Notes under the pieces: model-generated
Database searches by the model: none
What the model was told of the DNA's origin: nothing
Seen by the model: only the letters and a program-made list of their open reading frames with translations
Part shown: in pieces, positions 18,819 through 24,155 of the stretch
Numbering within the stretch: position 1 is the first letter of the stretch
Layout of the letters: every line of letters starts with the position of its first letter
Translations under genes and position numbers: made by a program
Assembly (NCBI RefSeq): GCF_010894435.1
Contig: NZ_JAAIXZ010000017.1
Coordinates: forward strand, 186,001-250,000
Length of the DNA: 64,000 bases
Reading direction: 5' to 3'
Origin: Pyxidicoccus trucidator
GTDB lineage: Bacteria > Myxococcota > Myxococcia > Myxococcales > Myxococcaceae

Positions 18819-21653
18819 ATGAAAACGAATGAAGCCAGCGCCGCCAGCAGGAAGACTCCCGGCCAGATGCCTCGGGTCGACCTCAGCCAACTGGGGCCTG
18901 GCATACGCATCAACCATTACGAGCTCATCCGCCAGCTCGGCAGTGGTGGCATGGGCACCGTCTTCCTCGCGCGCGACACCCGGCTGGGCCGCCGTGTGGC
19001 CATCAAGGTCCTGCATACACAGGACTCCGAATTCACCCGCCGCTTCCTCCTCGAAGCGCGCGCCACCGCGCAGTGCAGTCACGAAAACATCGTCGTCATC
19101 CATGAAGTCGGCGAAGCCGGCGGCAGTCCGTACATGGTCCTGGAGTTTCTCCAGGGCCAGCCGCTCAGCCATCTCCTCAAGGCCAGCCCTCCACGCCTGC
19201 CACCCGCCCGTGCGGTGGAGCTGATGACGCCCGTGCTCCGCGCCCTGGCCTGCGCCCACGAGCGGAACATCGTCCATCGGGACCTCAAGCCCGATAACAT
19301 CCTGGTGACGGACTCGGGCACCATCAAGGTGCTGGACTTCGGCATCGCCAAGGTGCTCCGCGCCGAGGAGCAGGGAACCGAGACGTCCCCGAAGGCGGTC
19401 ATGGCGGAGCTTCGCGCCCTCGCGCACTCCGGCGCACGCGACGAGGTCGTCCACGTCACGCGCCAGGGCGCGTTGCTCGGCACGATGGCGTACATGTCCC
19501 CGGAGCAGTGGGGCAGCGGTGCGTCCGTCGACCACCGGACGGACATCTGGGCGGTGGGTATCATGCTCTTCCGGATGCTCGCGGGCCGGCATCCGCTGGA
19601 CCCGCTGCGCGGCCACCAGCTCATGGTTACCGGGCTGCTCGACGAGCCCATGCCCCTGCTGCGCGATGTGGCTCCCGATGTGCCCGAGGGGCTGGCCGGC
19701 GTCGTCGACCGCTGCCTGCTCAAGCGCAAGGAGGAGCGTGTCCGGGACGCGCTCGAACTGCTGCGCGCCCTGGAGCCCTTCCAGCCCGGGCGCTACCACC
19801 CCGAGGCCCGCATCGACGAGAGCCCCTACGCGGGCCTCAGCTCCTTCCAGGAGGCGGACGCGAGCCGCTTCTTCGGCCGCTCCCGGGAGACCGCGGCGCT
19901 GGTGCACCGCATCCAGGACCGGCCGTTGATCGGCGTCGTCGGCCCCTCGGGTGCCGGAAAGTCGTCCTTCGTGCGGGCCGGCCTGGTGCCCGTGCTCAAG
20001 CGCTCCGGCGAGCCCTGGGAGTCTCTTGTCATCCGGCCCGGCCGCAATCCCCTGGCGGCGCTGGCGAGCATGGTGGCGCCCTTCATCACCTCCTCCCTCT
20101 CGGTGGAGGAGGACATCCGCAAGCAGCAGCAGCTTGCCGACCACCTTCGGGCCCAGCCCGGCTACGTCGGGTCGGTGCTGCGCAGCCGGGCCCGGCGCGA
20201 GCGCAGGCGCATCCTGCTCTTCGTGGACCAGTTCGAGGAGCTCTACACGCTCGTGTCCGACGCCGCGGAGCGTCAGGCCTTCACCGCGTGCCTGTCCGGT
20301 ATCGCCGATGACGCCACGTCCCCCATCCGCGTCGTCCTTTCCCTCCGCTCCGATTTCCTGGACCGCGTCTCCGAGGACGAGCGGTTCATGGCGGAGCTGT
20401 GGCAGGGATTGTTCTTCCTGGGCACTCCCAACGGCGAGGGGCTCAGGGATGCGCTGGTGCAGCCCGCGGAGCTGGCCGGGTACCGGTTCGAGACGCCTGC
20501 CATCGTCGACCAGATGCTCCAGCACCTGGAGTCGACACCAGGTGCCCTGCCCCTGCTGCAGTTCGCCGCCACGCAACTCTGGGAGGCTCGAGACCCCGCG
20601 CAGCGGCTGCTCACCGAGAGCGCCTACCAACGGCTGGGCGGCATCACCGGAGCGCTCGCGACACATGCGGACAGCGTGCTCGCCAGGATGTCGGCCTCGG
20701 AGCGGAACCTGGTGCGGGCCGTGTTCCTCCGGCTGGTGACCCCCGAGCGCACGCGCGCCATCGTGTCCCAGGAGGAGCTGCGTGAGCTGTCCGGGAACAC
20801 AGGGGAACTGAGACAGGTCATCGACCATCTCGTGCAGGCGCGACTGCTCGTCACCCAGACGGGAGGGGGCGCCAACGGGGCGTCCGTGGAGCTGGTGCAC
20901 GAGTCGCTCATCCACGGCTGGCCCACCCTGCTCCGGTGGCTCGACGAGGGGCAGGAGGACGCGGCCTTCATCGAGCAGCTCCGCAACGCGGCCCGGCAGT
21001 GGCAGGCCAAGGCCCGCGATACCGGCCTGCTCTGGCGCGGGGAGATGGTGGACGAGGCGCGGCGCTTCCAGCGGCGCTATCCGCGGGAGCTGCCAGAGCT
21101 CCAGCGCGCCTTCCTGGACGCGGTCTTCGCCTGTTCGGCCCGGGCCACGCGGCTCCGGCGGGCCCTGCTGGCGGGTTCCACGACAGTCCTCGTCCTGCTG
21201 GTCGTGGCGGCGGTGGTGGCGCTGCTGGTCATCAGCGACGCGCAGCAGGAGGCGGAACGGCAGGCCGAGCTGGCCCTGAGCGCCGAGGCCACGGCGCGCG
21301 CCGCCGAGTCGATGGCCAAGGCGGCCGAAGTGGAGGCGAAACGGCGACTGGCAGAGGTCCAGGCGAAGGAGCTGGAGCGTCAGGCGGCGCAGCTCCGCGC
21401 GGAGCAGGCCAGCGCCCAGGTCGCGCTCGCCAACGACGAGCTGGTGCACAGGAACGTGGCGCTGCGCTCGTCCCTGAAGCGAACCCAGCAGGCCCAGCGG
21501 CGAGCCCGGCTCGCGAAGCGCCACGCGGAGATTGCCGCGGAGGAGGCACGCAAGGCGACGAGGGAAACCCAGCGGCTCCTGGAGCGAGAGATGGAACGTG
21601 CCCAGCGCCTCGAGTCCTCGCTCGGCAGTCCGTTCATCAAGTCACTCAAGTGA
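18819..21653 (+). CDS. Ser/Thr kinase fused to an nSTAND ATPase, membrane-anchored
   Basis: 944 residues. Residues about 34-320 are a Hanks-type kinase with all key residues: GSGGMG at 41-46, Lys63 in AIKV, HRDLKPDN at 153-160, DFG at 173-175, SPEQ at 227-230. After a SPYAGLSSFQEADASRFFGR junction (335-354) comes an nSTAND1-type P-loop domain: GPSGAGKSS at 375-383 and Walker B ILLFVDQFEEL near 467. One strong membrane segment near residue 790 (TTVLVLLVVAAVVALLVI) precedes a long Ala/Glu/Arg coiled coil. Related proteins end in WD40 or TPR sensors; here the coiled coil takes that place. Kinase and STAND domain would be cytosolic; the 120-residue coiled-coil tail lies across the membrane if there is only this segment. 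First gene of a three-gene operon. Confidence 0.92.
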   Translation: MKTNEASAASRKTPGQMPRVDLSQLGPGIRINHYELIRQLGSGGMGTVFLARDTRLGRRVAIKVLHTQDSEFTRRFLLEARATAQCSHENIVVIHEVGEAGGSPYMVLEFLQGQPLSHLLKASPPRLPPARAVELMTPVLRALACAHERNIVHRDLKPDNILVTDSGTIKVLDFGIAKVLRAEEQGTETSPKAVMAELRALAHSGARDEVVHVTRQGALLGTMAYMSPEQWGSGASVDHRTDIWAVGIMLFRMLAGRHPLDPLRGHQLMVTGLLDEPMPLLRDVAPDVPEGLAGVVDRCLLKRKEERVRDALELLRALEPFQPGRYHPEARIDESPYAGLSSFQEADASRFFGRSRETAALVHRIQDRPLIGVVGPSGAGKSSFVRAGLVPVLKRSGEPWESLVIRPGRNPLAALASMVAPFITSSLSVEEDIRKQQQLADHLRAQPGYVGSVLRSRARRERRRILLFVDQFEELYTLVSDAAERQAFTACLSGIADDATSPIRVVLSLRSDFLDRVSEDERFMAELWQGLFFLGTPNGEGLRDALVQPAELAGYRFETPAIVDQMLQHLESTPGALPLLQFAATQLWEARDPAQRLLTESAYQRLGGITGALATHADSVLARMSASERNLVRAVFLRLVTPERTRAIVSQEELRELSGNTGELRQVIDHLVQARLLVTQTGGGANGASVELVHESLIHGWPTLLRWLDEGQEDAAFIEQLRNAARQWQAKARDTGLLWRGEMVDEARRFQRRYPRELPELQRAFLDAVFACSARATRLRRALLAGSTTVLVLLVVAAVVALLVISDAQQEAERQAELALSAEATARAAESMAKAAEVEAKRRLAEVQAKELERQAAQLRAEQASAQVALANDELVHRNVALRSSLKRTQQAQRRARLAKRHAEIAAEEARKATRETQRLLEREMERAQRLESSLGSPFIKSLK

Positions 21654-21660
21654 GGTCTCC

Positions 21661-22686: not shown

Positions 22687-22697
22687 TGAGGCCCTCC

Positions 22698-24155
22698 ATG
22701 CGTCAAGACCTGTCCTTCCAGTTCCGGCTCGGCCATGCACTGCTGGCCATCCTCTGCCTTCTGTTCCTGTCCTGCATCCAATCCGAGAGCACCACCTGTC
22801 CATCAGGGCTGCTCTGTGCTTCGGGCATGAAGTGCGCAGCCAGACAGGATGCATGCATCCTTGACGACTGCGGCGATGGGGTCATCCAGCCCGGCGAAGC
22901 CTGTGACGATGGCAACATCACCGGCGCCGATGGCTGTAGCCCGGACTGCAAGTCGTTGGAGCTATGTGGGAACGACATCGTGGACACCGCCGTGCACGAG
23001 AATTGCGACGATGGCAATGCCATCGGGTCAGACGGATGCAGCGCTGACTGTAAATCAAACGAAGAGTGCGGCAATGACTTCGTTGATGCCGACGAGACGT
23101 GCGATGACGGCAATCATGATGATGGTGATGGATGCAGCGCGGACTGCCAATCCGACGAGACCTGTGGCAATGACCTCATCGACATCGACGAGAGTTGCGA
23201 TGACGGCAACCAGGTGAATGGCGATGGATGTAGCGCCGATTGTCAATCGGACGAGAGCTGCGGCAATGGCATTCTCGATCCCGGTGAGGTGTGCGACGAC
23301 GGCAACGAAGAGAGTGGCGACGGCTGCAGTGCGACTTGCGCCTCTGAAGAATGTGGCAATCAAGTCGTGGATGCCAACGAGACATGCGACGACGGCAACA
23401 AGGTGGGGGGCGACGGTTGCAGCGCTGTTTGCCGGGCGGAAGAGGGGTGTGGCAATGGCATTAAAAACGCCAACGAGGAGTGTGACGACGGCAATTACTT
23501 CAATGACGATGACTGCTTGTCGTCATGTGTCCTGGCCAGATGTGGCGATGGATTCATGGACCAAACCCCTCCTGTTATAGAGGAGTGCGACGATGGCAAT
23601 GCCCTTGCCTGTGGGACCTGCGGGCAAGGCTGCCAGGTGCGTCAGGACTCCAGTATCGCCAGCGGGTATTTCGAAGCCGTCGAGGGGGGCCTAATTGCGG
23701 ATGGCGAAATATTCTCCATCAGTGATGGTCGAGCCCGACTGTTCTTCGAGTTCAACAAGACAGGGCAAGTACCCGATTCTCATGTCGAAGTATCTATCGG
23801 TGATGGGACTGCTGCGCGGGGTGTGGCCTGGGCGATGGCGGTTGCCATCACGAAGCAAATCTCCAATGGGAAGTTGGACATCCAGGTGACGGGGCCCGGA
23901 GACAAAGACGCACTGGTGCGTCTGGATAACGTTGCCCCCGGCACCCACGGAAATCAGGCCCTCATCGAGTCCGTAAAGGACCGGGGCTTCCTGGCAGAGG
24001 GGATGAGTGAGGGCGCAGGCCACGACTGCCCCGAGGGGACCCGCTGCACACGCAATGAGGACTGTGCGGGAGGCGATGACGGCAGAATCGGGAAGTGCAA
24101 GGGGGGAAACGCGGATGCGGGAACTGTCGGTAGCTGCATCCTTGTGCGCCCCTGA
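22698..24155 (+). CDS. Lipoprotein with eight myxobacterial CDDGN disulfide repeats
   Basis: 485-residue lipoprotein with signal peptide and lipobox LFLSC. Eight repeats of the DUF4215/myxobacterial disulfide type follow, each about 27-30 residues with the core CGNG-x-E-x-CDDGN-x-GDGCS-x-C. The C-terminal 150 residues are a separate beta-rich domain ([25 protein letters not shown]) ending with another Cys cluster ([13 protein letters not shown]). Such repeats make rigid, disulfide-bonded surface rods. ATG at 22698 has GAGG upstream; an ATG at 22686 overlapping the previous stop is possible. Third gene of the kinase-STAND operon, so likely the exposed component. Its DNA is less GC-rich than its neighbours. 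Confidence 0.85.
22869..23633 (+). repeat. Eight tandem CDDGN repeat units inside the lipoprotein gene
   Basis: Degenerate tandem repeats of about 80-100 bases encode the eight disulfide modules. DNA identity between units is highest around the CDDGN codons (tgcgacgacggcaa-like). Such arrays can change copy number by recombination. Confidence 0.8.

Follow-up and report, generated by a model that had tools for sequence, protein, structure and literature searches.

The PASTA-type PknB/Stk1 receptors join a cytoplasmic Hanks kinase through one transmembrane (TM) helix to an extracytoplasmic sensor that probably lies near the peptidoglycan. To our knowledge, the way in which events outside the membrane could control a STAND switch has not been established. 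As far as the available passages of the cited reports go, heptad length classes define the chemoreceptors and linker activity of a histidine kinase is heptad-dependent (PMC5907407, PMC6798134); STAND conflict systems carry a peptidoglycan-associating PEGA-type domain behind a TM segment (Kaur et al. 2020, PMC7159879); other STAND proteins are activated by inducer-driven multimerisation (PMC6468293, PMC4381067); and the cysteine-rich tandem repeats of TraA, a kin-recognition receptor of Myxococcus, have been proposed to form the stalk of a surface protein (PMC3325183). Here we describe a three-gene locus at positions 18819–24155 of a 64,000-nucleotide stretch of Pyxidicoccus trucidator DNA (the window; host genome 12.7 Mb, 136 contigs), in which a Ser/Thr kinase fused to an nSTAND1 ATPase is followed by an exported TPR/PEGA protein and a cysteine-rich lipoprotein. 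We consider it rather probable that the trio forms one envelope-spanning receptor, with its sensor split into separate proteins. No paper on this system was found in the open-access literature, subscription papers and preprints lying outside the scope of the search, and the open-access papers on PEGA domains do not deal with it as far as their titles show. The features of the locus are as follows.

18819–21653, + strand: gene 1, Ser/Thr kinase, nSTAND1, single TM helix, coiled coil and conserved C-terminal tail, 944 residues (Pfam, motifs)
18918–19742, + strand: kinase domain, residues 34–308, with HRDLKPDN and DFG (Pfam, motifs)
19824–21023, + strand: nSTAND1 ATPase, residues 336–735, Walker A GPSGAGKSS (Pfam, motif)
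21177–21233, + strand: single TM helix, residues 787–805 (prediction, charge comparison)
21237–21620, + strand: Ala-rich coiled-coil rod, predicted periplasmic (heptad analysis)
21621–21650, + strand: extreme C-terminal tail LGSPFIKSLK, conserved (homologue alignment)
21661–22686, + strand: gene 2, exported TPR/PEGA protein with a C-terminal helical hairpin, 341 residues (Pfam, AlphaFold2 (AF2) model)
21805–22080, + strand: TPR-like helices of gene 2, residues 49–140 (model, PDB matches)
22084–22284, + strand: PEGA beta domain of gene 2, residues 142–208 (Pfam, model, PDB matches)
22330–22575, + strand: helical hairpin of gene 2, residues 224–305, Gly/Ala-rich membrane-like segments of uncertain topology (model)
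22686–24155, + strand: gene 3, cysteine-rich lipoprotein, 489 residues (Pfam, NCBIfam, alignment)
22773–22775, + strand: lipobox cysteine C30 of gene 3 (invariant in 26 aligned homologues)
22854–23639, + strand: DUF4215/TIGR02232 repeats of gene 3, eight CDDGN (Pfam, NCBIfam, motif count)
23649–24023, + strand: C-terminal domain of gene 3, residues 322–446, tail sheath/flagellin/FliD-like fold (structure comparison)

The coordinates and domain content of the trio agree with those of a preliminary description of this DNA, as does its statement that the kinase has no WD40 or TPR sensor, neither of which is among the gene 1 Pfam matches at E 0.01. Gene 1 matches Pkinase (E 4e-44, residues 34–308) and nSTAND1 (PF20703, E 6e-116, residues 336–735), and its HRD (HRDLKPDN), DFG, VAIK and Walker A (GPSGAGKSS) motifs are all intact, as expected of a Hanks kinase joined to an nSTAND. 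Behind a single TM segment, about 130 residues make up a helical region with a heptad pattern, and the chain ends as coil and tail, with no Pfam match there to an in-chain WD40, TPR-PEGA or FGE sensor. PASTA repeats gave no Pfam match at E 0.01, and the NF033483 model scored 266.8 bits against a cut-off of 450. In 84 of 98 gene 1 homologues, net charge is higher before the TM segment than behind it; this bias, the single TM segment and the signal sequences suggest that the rod is periplasmic. A helix of its length would measure ~19 nm (at 0.15 nm per residue), about the width of a periplasm. The three genes are tightly packed: gene 1 is followed after a 7 bp gap by GTG 21661, one of two possible starts of gene 2 (the other is ATG 21670), which ends at 22686, and gene 3 may start at ATG 22686, overlapping the gene 2 stop by one base, or at ATG 22698. 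The stretch contains two terminator-like sites, against 2.1 expected by chance, one of them at 22660–22676, near the junction of genes 2 and 3, so that separate transcription retains some likelihood.

Kinase searches covered 96 genomes of the family, 64 of which have a match at E 1e-150, and 195 genomes of the phylum, 95 of which have a match at E 1e-110, FGE-type relatives included (the best four candidates per genome were scored). Loci were fetched for a large share of the matches rather than for every one; 90 kinase loci scored above 600 bits, and completeness and downstream length made 85 of them testable for gene 2 and 83 for gene 3. Gene 2 lies next to the kinase, on the same strand, in 80/85 loci; both partners are present in 78/83, and 75 of these 78 have at least two CDDGN-type motifs. 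In the five partnerless loci (L049, L050, L128, L142 and L143) both genes are missing. Conservation of the partners with the kinase, on which the preliminary description had staked its three-gene idea, is thus confirmed by the counts. Partners accompany none of the nine weaker kinase matches in the fetched loci, five of which are informative (downstream sequence is shorter than 600 bp in L130, L132 and L134, and the L088 match is confined to the kinase part).

The same association was recovered starting from gene 2. A single peptide pattern scanned against one genome each of 84,980 species gave 56 loci, all in records titled myxobacteria, Deltaproteobacteria or Proteobacteria; this set shares genomes with the kinase searches, so that it is no independent sample, and the own genome or one very near it may be left out. 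A kinase lies upstream of gene 2 in 47 of the 56 loci; seven of the other nine have at most 621 bp upstream, and two (L177 and L199) have no kinase despite upstream sequence. A looser CDDGN-type pattern gave at least one match in 53/56 and at least two in 50/56, with none in 6 kb at L192. The P. trucidator genome has only two full-length gene 2 relatives, each directly behind a copy of the trio kinase, and carries DUF4215 in eight open frames. The own-genome relatives of gene 2 and the kinase-upstream counts indicate that the association is specific to the trio kinase clade and no by-product of common domains. Across 12 genomes with several copies, the paralogue nearest by kinase agrees with the one nearest by gene 2 in 237/297 comparisons and with the one nearest by gene 3 in 248/297, comparisons that are not independent. 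Taken at the level of sequence, the data support the three genes as a conserved unit. The closest named relative found, Pyxidicoccus fallax (L154), has a gene 2 that is 79% identical, though very near records may be left out. The metagenome-assembled genome UBA1203 contains a partnerless trio-type kinase (L128), a kinase-less gene 2 relative (L177) on another contig, and a regular trio (L127).

The rod and the tail of gene 1 were compared in 136 collected kinases, reduced to 98 by dropping identical cores and cores under 700 residues; L143, whose reading frame is broken or short, falls outside the count. From residue 781, the start of the TM segment, to position 927, which is Arg in 94/98 kinases, the rod spans a whole number of heptads in 93 of the 98 distinct kinases (133, 140, 147, 154, 161, 168, 175 or 196 residues). 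Off phase are four partnerless copies (L049, L142, L050 and L128) and the partnered L195 (+4). Parsimony on the kinase+nSTAND tree gave 23 length changes, 19 of them multiples of seven; the four non-heptad changes fall on partnerless branches (−9 in L050, +10 in L049 and L142, +44 in L128) and on L195 (+4), the last a coiled-coil stutter in the terms used in passages of PMC6798134. The hydrophobic peak occupies heptad position 3 in all 93 in-phase rods (85% AILMVFC, mostly small residues). The rod has, in short, the heptad-quantised coiled-coil length known from chemoreceptors. Beyond it, the chain closes with the motif L-G-x-x-I-x-x-L-K, which is not present in partnerless copies: among 82 kinases with gene 2, Gly936 is found in 82, Leu943 in 79, Leu935 in 73 and Lys944 in 70, and 43/47 kinases reached via gene 2 have LK at the C-terminus. 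Mean conservation of the last ten residues is 3.04 bits, compared with 2.45 for the rod. The partnerless L049, L050 and L142 also miss the HRD motif by pattern search, which L128 retains.

The best evidence that a sensor was split off comes from fused sister kinases. Pfam found an FGE-sulfatase end in three of the four weaker kinase matches scanned (L152, L153 and L133) and a WD40 end in the fourth (L129); L152 and L153 are the next best kinase relatives in the own genome (39% identical) and, like L133, are kinase-nSTAND1-TM proteins. A region of 225 residues, from the TM end to the FGE domain, is matched by hhalign to the TPR-PEGA part of gene 2 at a probability of 93.5% (E 3.5e-8; with other settings 94.2%, E 1.2e-7; single-comparison E-values). 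The sister alignment holds 24 proteins, 20 of them accepted as orthologues on search results without a Pfam scan, and five control segments of the sister proteins gave probabilities of 0.1–0.2% against gene 2. Gene 2 probably corresponds to a module that the sister receptors carry in their own chain just outside the membrane. The proposal of the preliminary description that the sensor function had moved into separate exported proteins gains support from this in-chain TPR-PEGA-like region, whose TPR half aligns weakly.

Gene 2 has a signal-peptide-like N-terminus. Its PEGA domain is marginal in Pfam (20.1 bits vs a gathering score of 20.8) and Pfam reports no TPR in the window's copy, but the AF2 model (mean predicted local distance difference test score, pLDDT, 87.8) contains TPR-like helices and a beta domain of transthyretin type. 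In the PDB it comes closest to a small chain from a hydrazine dehydrogenase complex (E 3e-5), then to carboxypeptidase D in its transthyretin-like domain (E 2e-4), with TPR proteins from E 0.008; Foldseek returned the C-terminal-peptide-binding TPRs Sgt2, CHIP, Tah1 and Tom71 at E 0.01 and weaker. In 37 sequences, N93 is invariant and N63 at least 90% conserved, and by comparison with Hop we take these to be two of the five carboxylate clamp positions. A canonical TPR carboxylate clamp is not claimed, because the lysines and the arginine are missing. An aligned sister protein has R and E at the N93/N63 positions, in a weak stretch of the alignment. Outside the trio, the gene 2 hairpin (positions about 226–315) recurs in the myxobacterial frames L210–L218, most of about 330–380 residues. 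The gene 2 of the second paralogue (L051, L035 and L067) is longer, at 439–495 residues, and that of L051 carries a Lys/Ala/Pro-rich insert behind the signal peptide.

A signalling path can be proposed for a receptor built in this way. The gene 3 lipoprotein, probably anchored in the outer membrane, would meet the stimulus with a stiff disulfide rod and a surface-type domain, and gene 2 would act as a periplasmic adaptor near the peptidoglycan, gripping the end of the kinase rod through the LGxxIxxLK tail and the rod tip. When the adaptor changes, the rod would turn or shift and, because it is proposed to be phase-locked in whole heptads, the change would pass through the single TM helix to nSTAND1. 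The ATPase would then go to its ATP form, oligomerise, presumably as other STANDs do, and bring the kinase domains together to phosphorylate a target. We infer the physical contact, the direction of signalling, the ligand and the target of this path. A further step, which we take only tentatively and hold at less than even odds, would make the trio a membrane-embedded, NLR-like switch worked from outside: a trans-envelope mechanical relay in which the tail of the rod is held by a detachable TPR/PEGA adaptor that reads gene 3.

The place of gene 3 in this path deserves separate consideration. The protein has a lipoprotein start, with DUF4215 in seven stretches by Pfam and TIGR02232 in eight by NCBIfam; motif counting returned the same eight CDDGN repeats that had been described before, beyond which come a ~125-residue domain and a cysteine cap. 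The domain aligns with tail sheath, flagellin and FliD domains (best Z 9.5, root-mean-square deviation 2.5 over 101 residues), a Foldseek search with it found no match as good as E 0.001 (the top one, a phage baseplate, had 0.007), and one gene 3 paralogue has a weak tail-sheath profile match (E 1e-4). The modelled fold is consistent with surface exposure; a shared fold by itself shows no function. Such a protein could also be a product of the system: the lipoprotein would then be the output of a two-part receptor of kinase and gene 2, which would regulate its export or assembly as a surface structure. Two features would suit such a product: gene 3 is the fastest-evolving of the three (identity in 92 close pairs averages 73%, compared with 80% for gene 2 and 93% for the kinase), and its repeat count varies widely, from 1–2 up to 22 CDDGN-type motifs across loci, some of them cut; the likeness of its C-terminal domain to tail sheath and flagellin domains points the same way. 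However, one operon cannot tell input from output, the five partnerless copies lack gene 3 as well as gene 2, and the cysteine caps at both ends of the gene 3 protein are conserved across the 26 sequences aligned. We regard an output role as unlikely and prefer to place gene 3 at the sensing end of a single receptor. In other respects, gene 3 exceeds 1200 residues in L047, L048, L135–L137 and L139. Gene 3 (window 22860–24155) is AT-richer than its surroundings (GC content 0.58 in 23–24 kb), and its third-position GC is 0.66, compared with about 0.9; L052, L053 and L057 behave likewise, the paralogue L051 does not. Elsewhere in the own genome (L115, 4672–11589, minus strand), a DUF4215-repeat protein, whose end we take to be MYXO-CTERM-like, lies directly upstream of a kinase-motif frame, the two frames abutting.

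Several observations weigh against a single receptor. The contact between gene 2 and the kinase is conjectured from sequence, and sorting of the gene 3 lipoprotein to the outer membrane is assumed. The gene 2 relative L177 of UBA1203 has no kinase alongside, and the nearest paralogues of kinase and gene 2 disagree in 60/297 comparisons. Eight of the 98 kinases have two hydrophobic segments, not one, and the charged residues around the gene 2 hairpin fit the presumed topology poorly. As to the rod, anchor 927 was picked after a first anchor, Gly936, had given 78/82 partnered kinases in one phase, and L195 has partners yet a rod that is off phase. The tail, at 3.04 bits, is less conserved than the kinase (3.25) and nSTAND (3.53), and partnered tails deviate in the second g8 paralogue lineage, L032, L184, L205 and L209; in the second g8 lineage, where the kinase tail is different, gene 2 is more divergent too. 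In the sister comparison, single sequences against gene 2 gave probabilities of 2–5%, the TPR half is weak, and both PEGA and TPR are sub-threshold in Pfam. Finally, stability alone may make coiled coils drift by heptads, and the DNA has a weak 21-bp periodicity (0.42 vs about 0.36), which leaves slippage some likelihood as a source of heptad indels. The window's rod has no tandem repeat by this kind of search, and a permissive Tandem Repeats Finder run on 82 loci gave 62 rows, of which eight have period 21 and two have period 42.

Read together, these points could describe three co-transcribed, physically independent envelope proteins, linked by shared expression, in which the heptads reflect the stability of the coiled coil and nothing more; a stable coiled coil alone could favour heptad indels, and the weak periodicity and the conjectural contact would be at home there. 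Against this stand the loss of both phase and tail in the partnerless copies, the TPR-PEGA-like region in the same chain of the sister proteins, the better conservation of the tail than of the rod, and the paralogues, which mostly track their own partners. Independence of the three proteins seems to us quite unlikely, more so than an output role of gene 3.

The genomic setting bears on a role in immunity or danger sensing, which the preliminary description had considered. The slot of the trio, flanked by a zinc-type alcohol dehydrogenase gene on one side and a gene of the arginase family on the other, is fixed within the genus; the same flanks enclose twelve further trio loci that were fetched (L052, L053 and L055–L064), and the second paralogue (such as L051) is located elsewhere. 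In 11 of 27 genomes of the genus there is no kinase match at E 1e-150, and these contain only partial gene 2 relatives (best E 2e-9), in the helical hairpin. Four of the 11, when examined, had the slot without the trio: one has the flanks joined without a gap (window 16296 to 24194), and the other three have about 1.1–1.2 kb of other DNA between them. Being absent from part of the genus and fixed in its slot elsewhere in it, the trio is dispensable yet anciently kept. Among the seven neighbouring window frames, Pfam (PADLOC was applied to the trio, not to its neighbours here or in other genera) recognised no defence gene, one frame having no match. For gene 1, the PADLOC matches listed (25 of 35 families) are kinase-type models on the kinase part; genes 2 and 3 gave none.

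A membrane-bound anti-phage or danger surveillance system, whose STAND would sense an invader and whose kinase would trigger a protective response, is highly improbable: STAND ATPases and some Ser/Thr kinases do act in immunity, nSTAND1 is named in the available passages of a study of counter-invader systems (PMC8195603), and the trio is patchy in the genus, but the listed PADLOC matches concern the kinase part, the slot is fixed in the genus, with no recognised defence gene in the seven neighbouring frames scanned, the sensor side is predicted to be exported and not cytoplasmic, and several genomes retain two old paralogue lineages. The immune role once suggested is accordingly not borne out; its basis is the STAND label, the context gives it no backing, and the fixed slot and the neighbours scanned do not support a defence island either.

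An S8 subtilase gene at 16539–17789, in the slot before the trio, was rejected as a fourth part; it has no match at E 1e-15 in the other 99 loci and is found in this genome only, among the 100 loci searched. Just downstream of the trio, at 26492–30125, a trypsin/PDZ (DegP-like) gene is followed by a Ser/Thr kinase with in-chain PEGA (27936–30125).

If the proposed path is correct, a trans-envelope mechanical relay would control a STAND protein, and PEGA and the DUF4215 (TIGR02232) repeat, both exported modules about which little is understood, would acquire a functional context in multicellular predatory bacteria. Nature supplies controls in the fused sister receptors, the partnered copies that keep the heptad rule and the partnerless copies that break it, and because of these the signalling path is testable by simple changes to rod length and tail.

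In comparison with known systems, the trio shares with PASTA-type PknB/Stk1 a cytoplasmic Hanks kinase, one TM helix and an extracytoplasmic sensor, but it has no PASTA, a STAND ATPase stands between kinase and TM helix, and the sensor would reside in separate proteins. Its rod resembles the heptad-quantised coiled coils of chemoreceptors (MCPs) and coiled-coil-linked histidine kinases, as the cited passages portray them, whereas the rod is predicted to lie outside the membrane, is C-terminal and serves a Ser/Thr kinase output with a STAND; gene 1 also lacks the antiparallel cytoplasmic hairpin that bears the CheA/CheW-binding tip of chemoreceptors and continues as a single helical run from its only TM segment to the C-terminus. 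With the iSTAND/vWA-MoxR ternary conflict systems, to the extent that the passages cited above describe them, the trio has in common a STAND and a PEGA-type domain behind a TM segment; vWA and MoxR are absent among the seven neighbouring frames scanned, and a kinase and a cysteine-rich lipoprotein are present instead. Gene 3 is like TraA, as the cited passage presents it, in having cysteine-rich tandem repeats in a surface-type protein. TraA combines PA14, TIGR04201 repeats and MYXO-CTERM, none of which was found in gene 3, where Pfam and NCBIfam matched only DUF4215 and TIGR02232 and the repeats are paired with a lipobox. The nearest of all in kinase, nSTAND1 order and TM helix are the FGE- and WD40-ended kinase-nSTAND1-TM-sensor proteins of myxobacteria, which keep their sensor in one chain, where the trio has a rod, a tail and two separate proteins.

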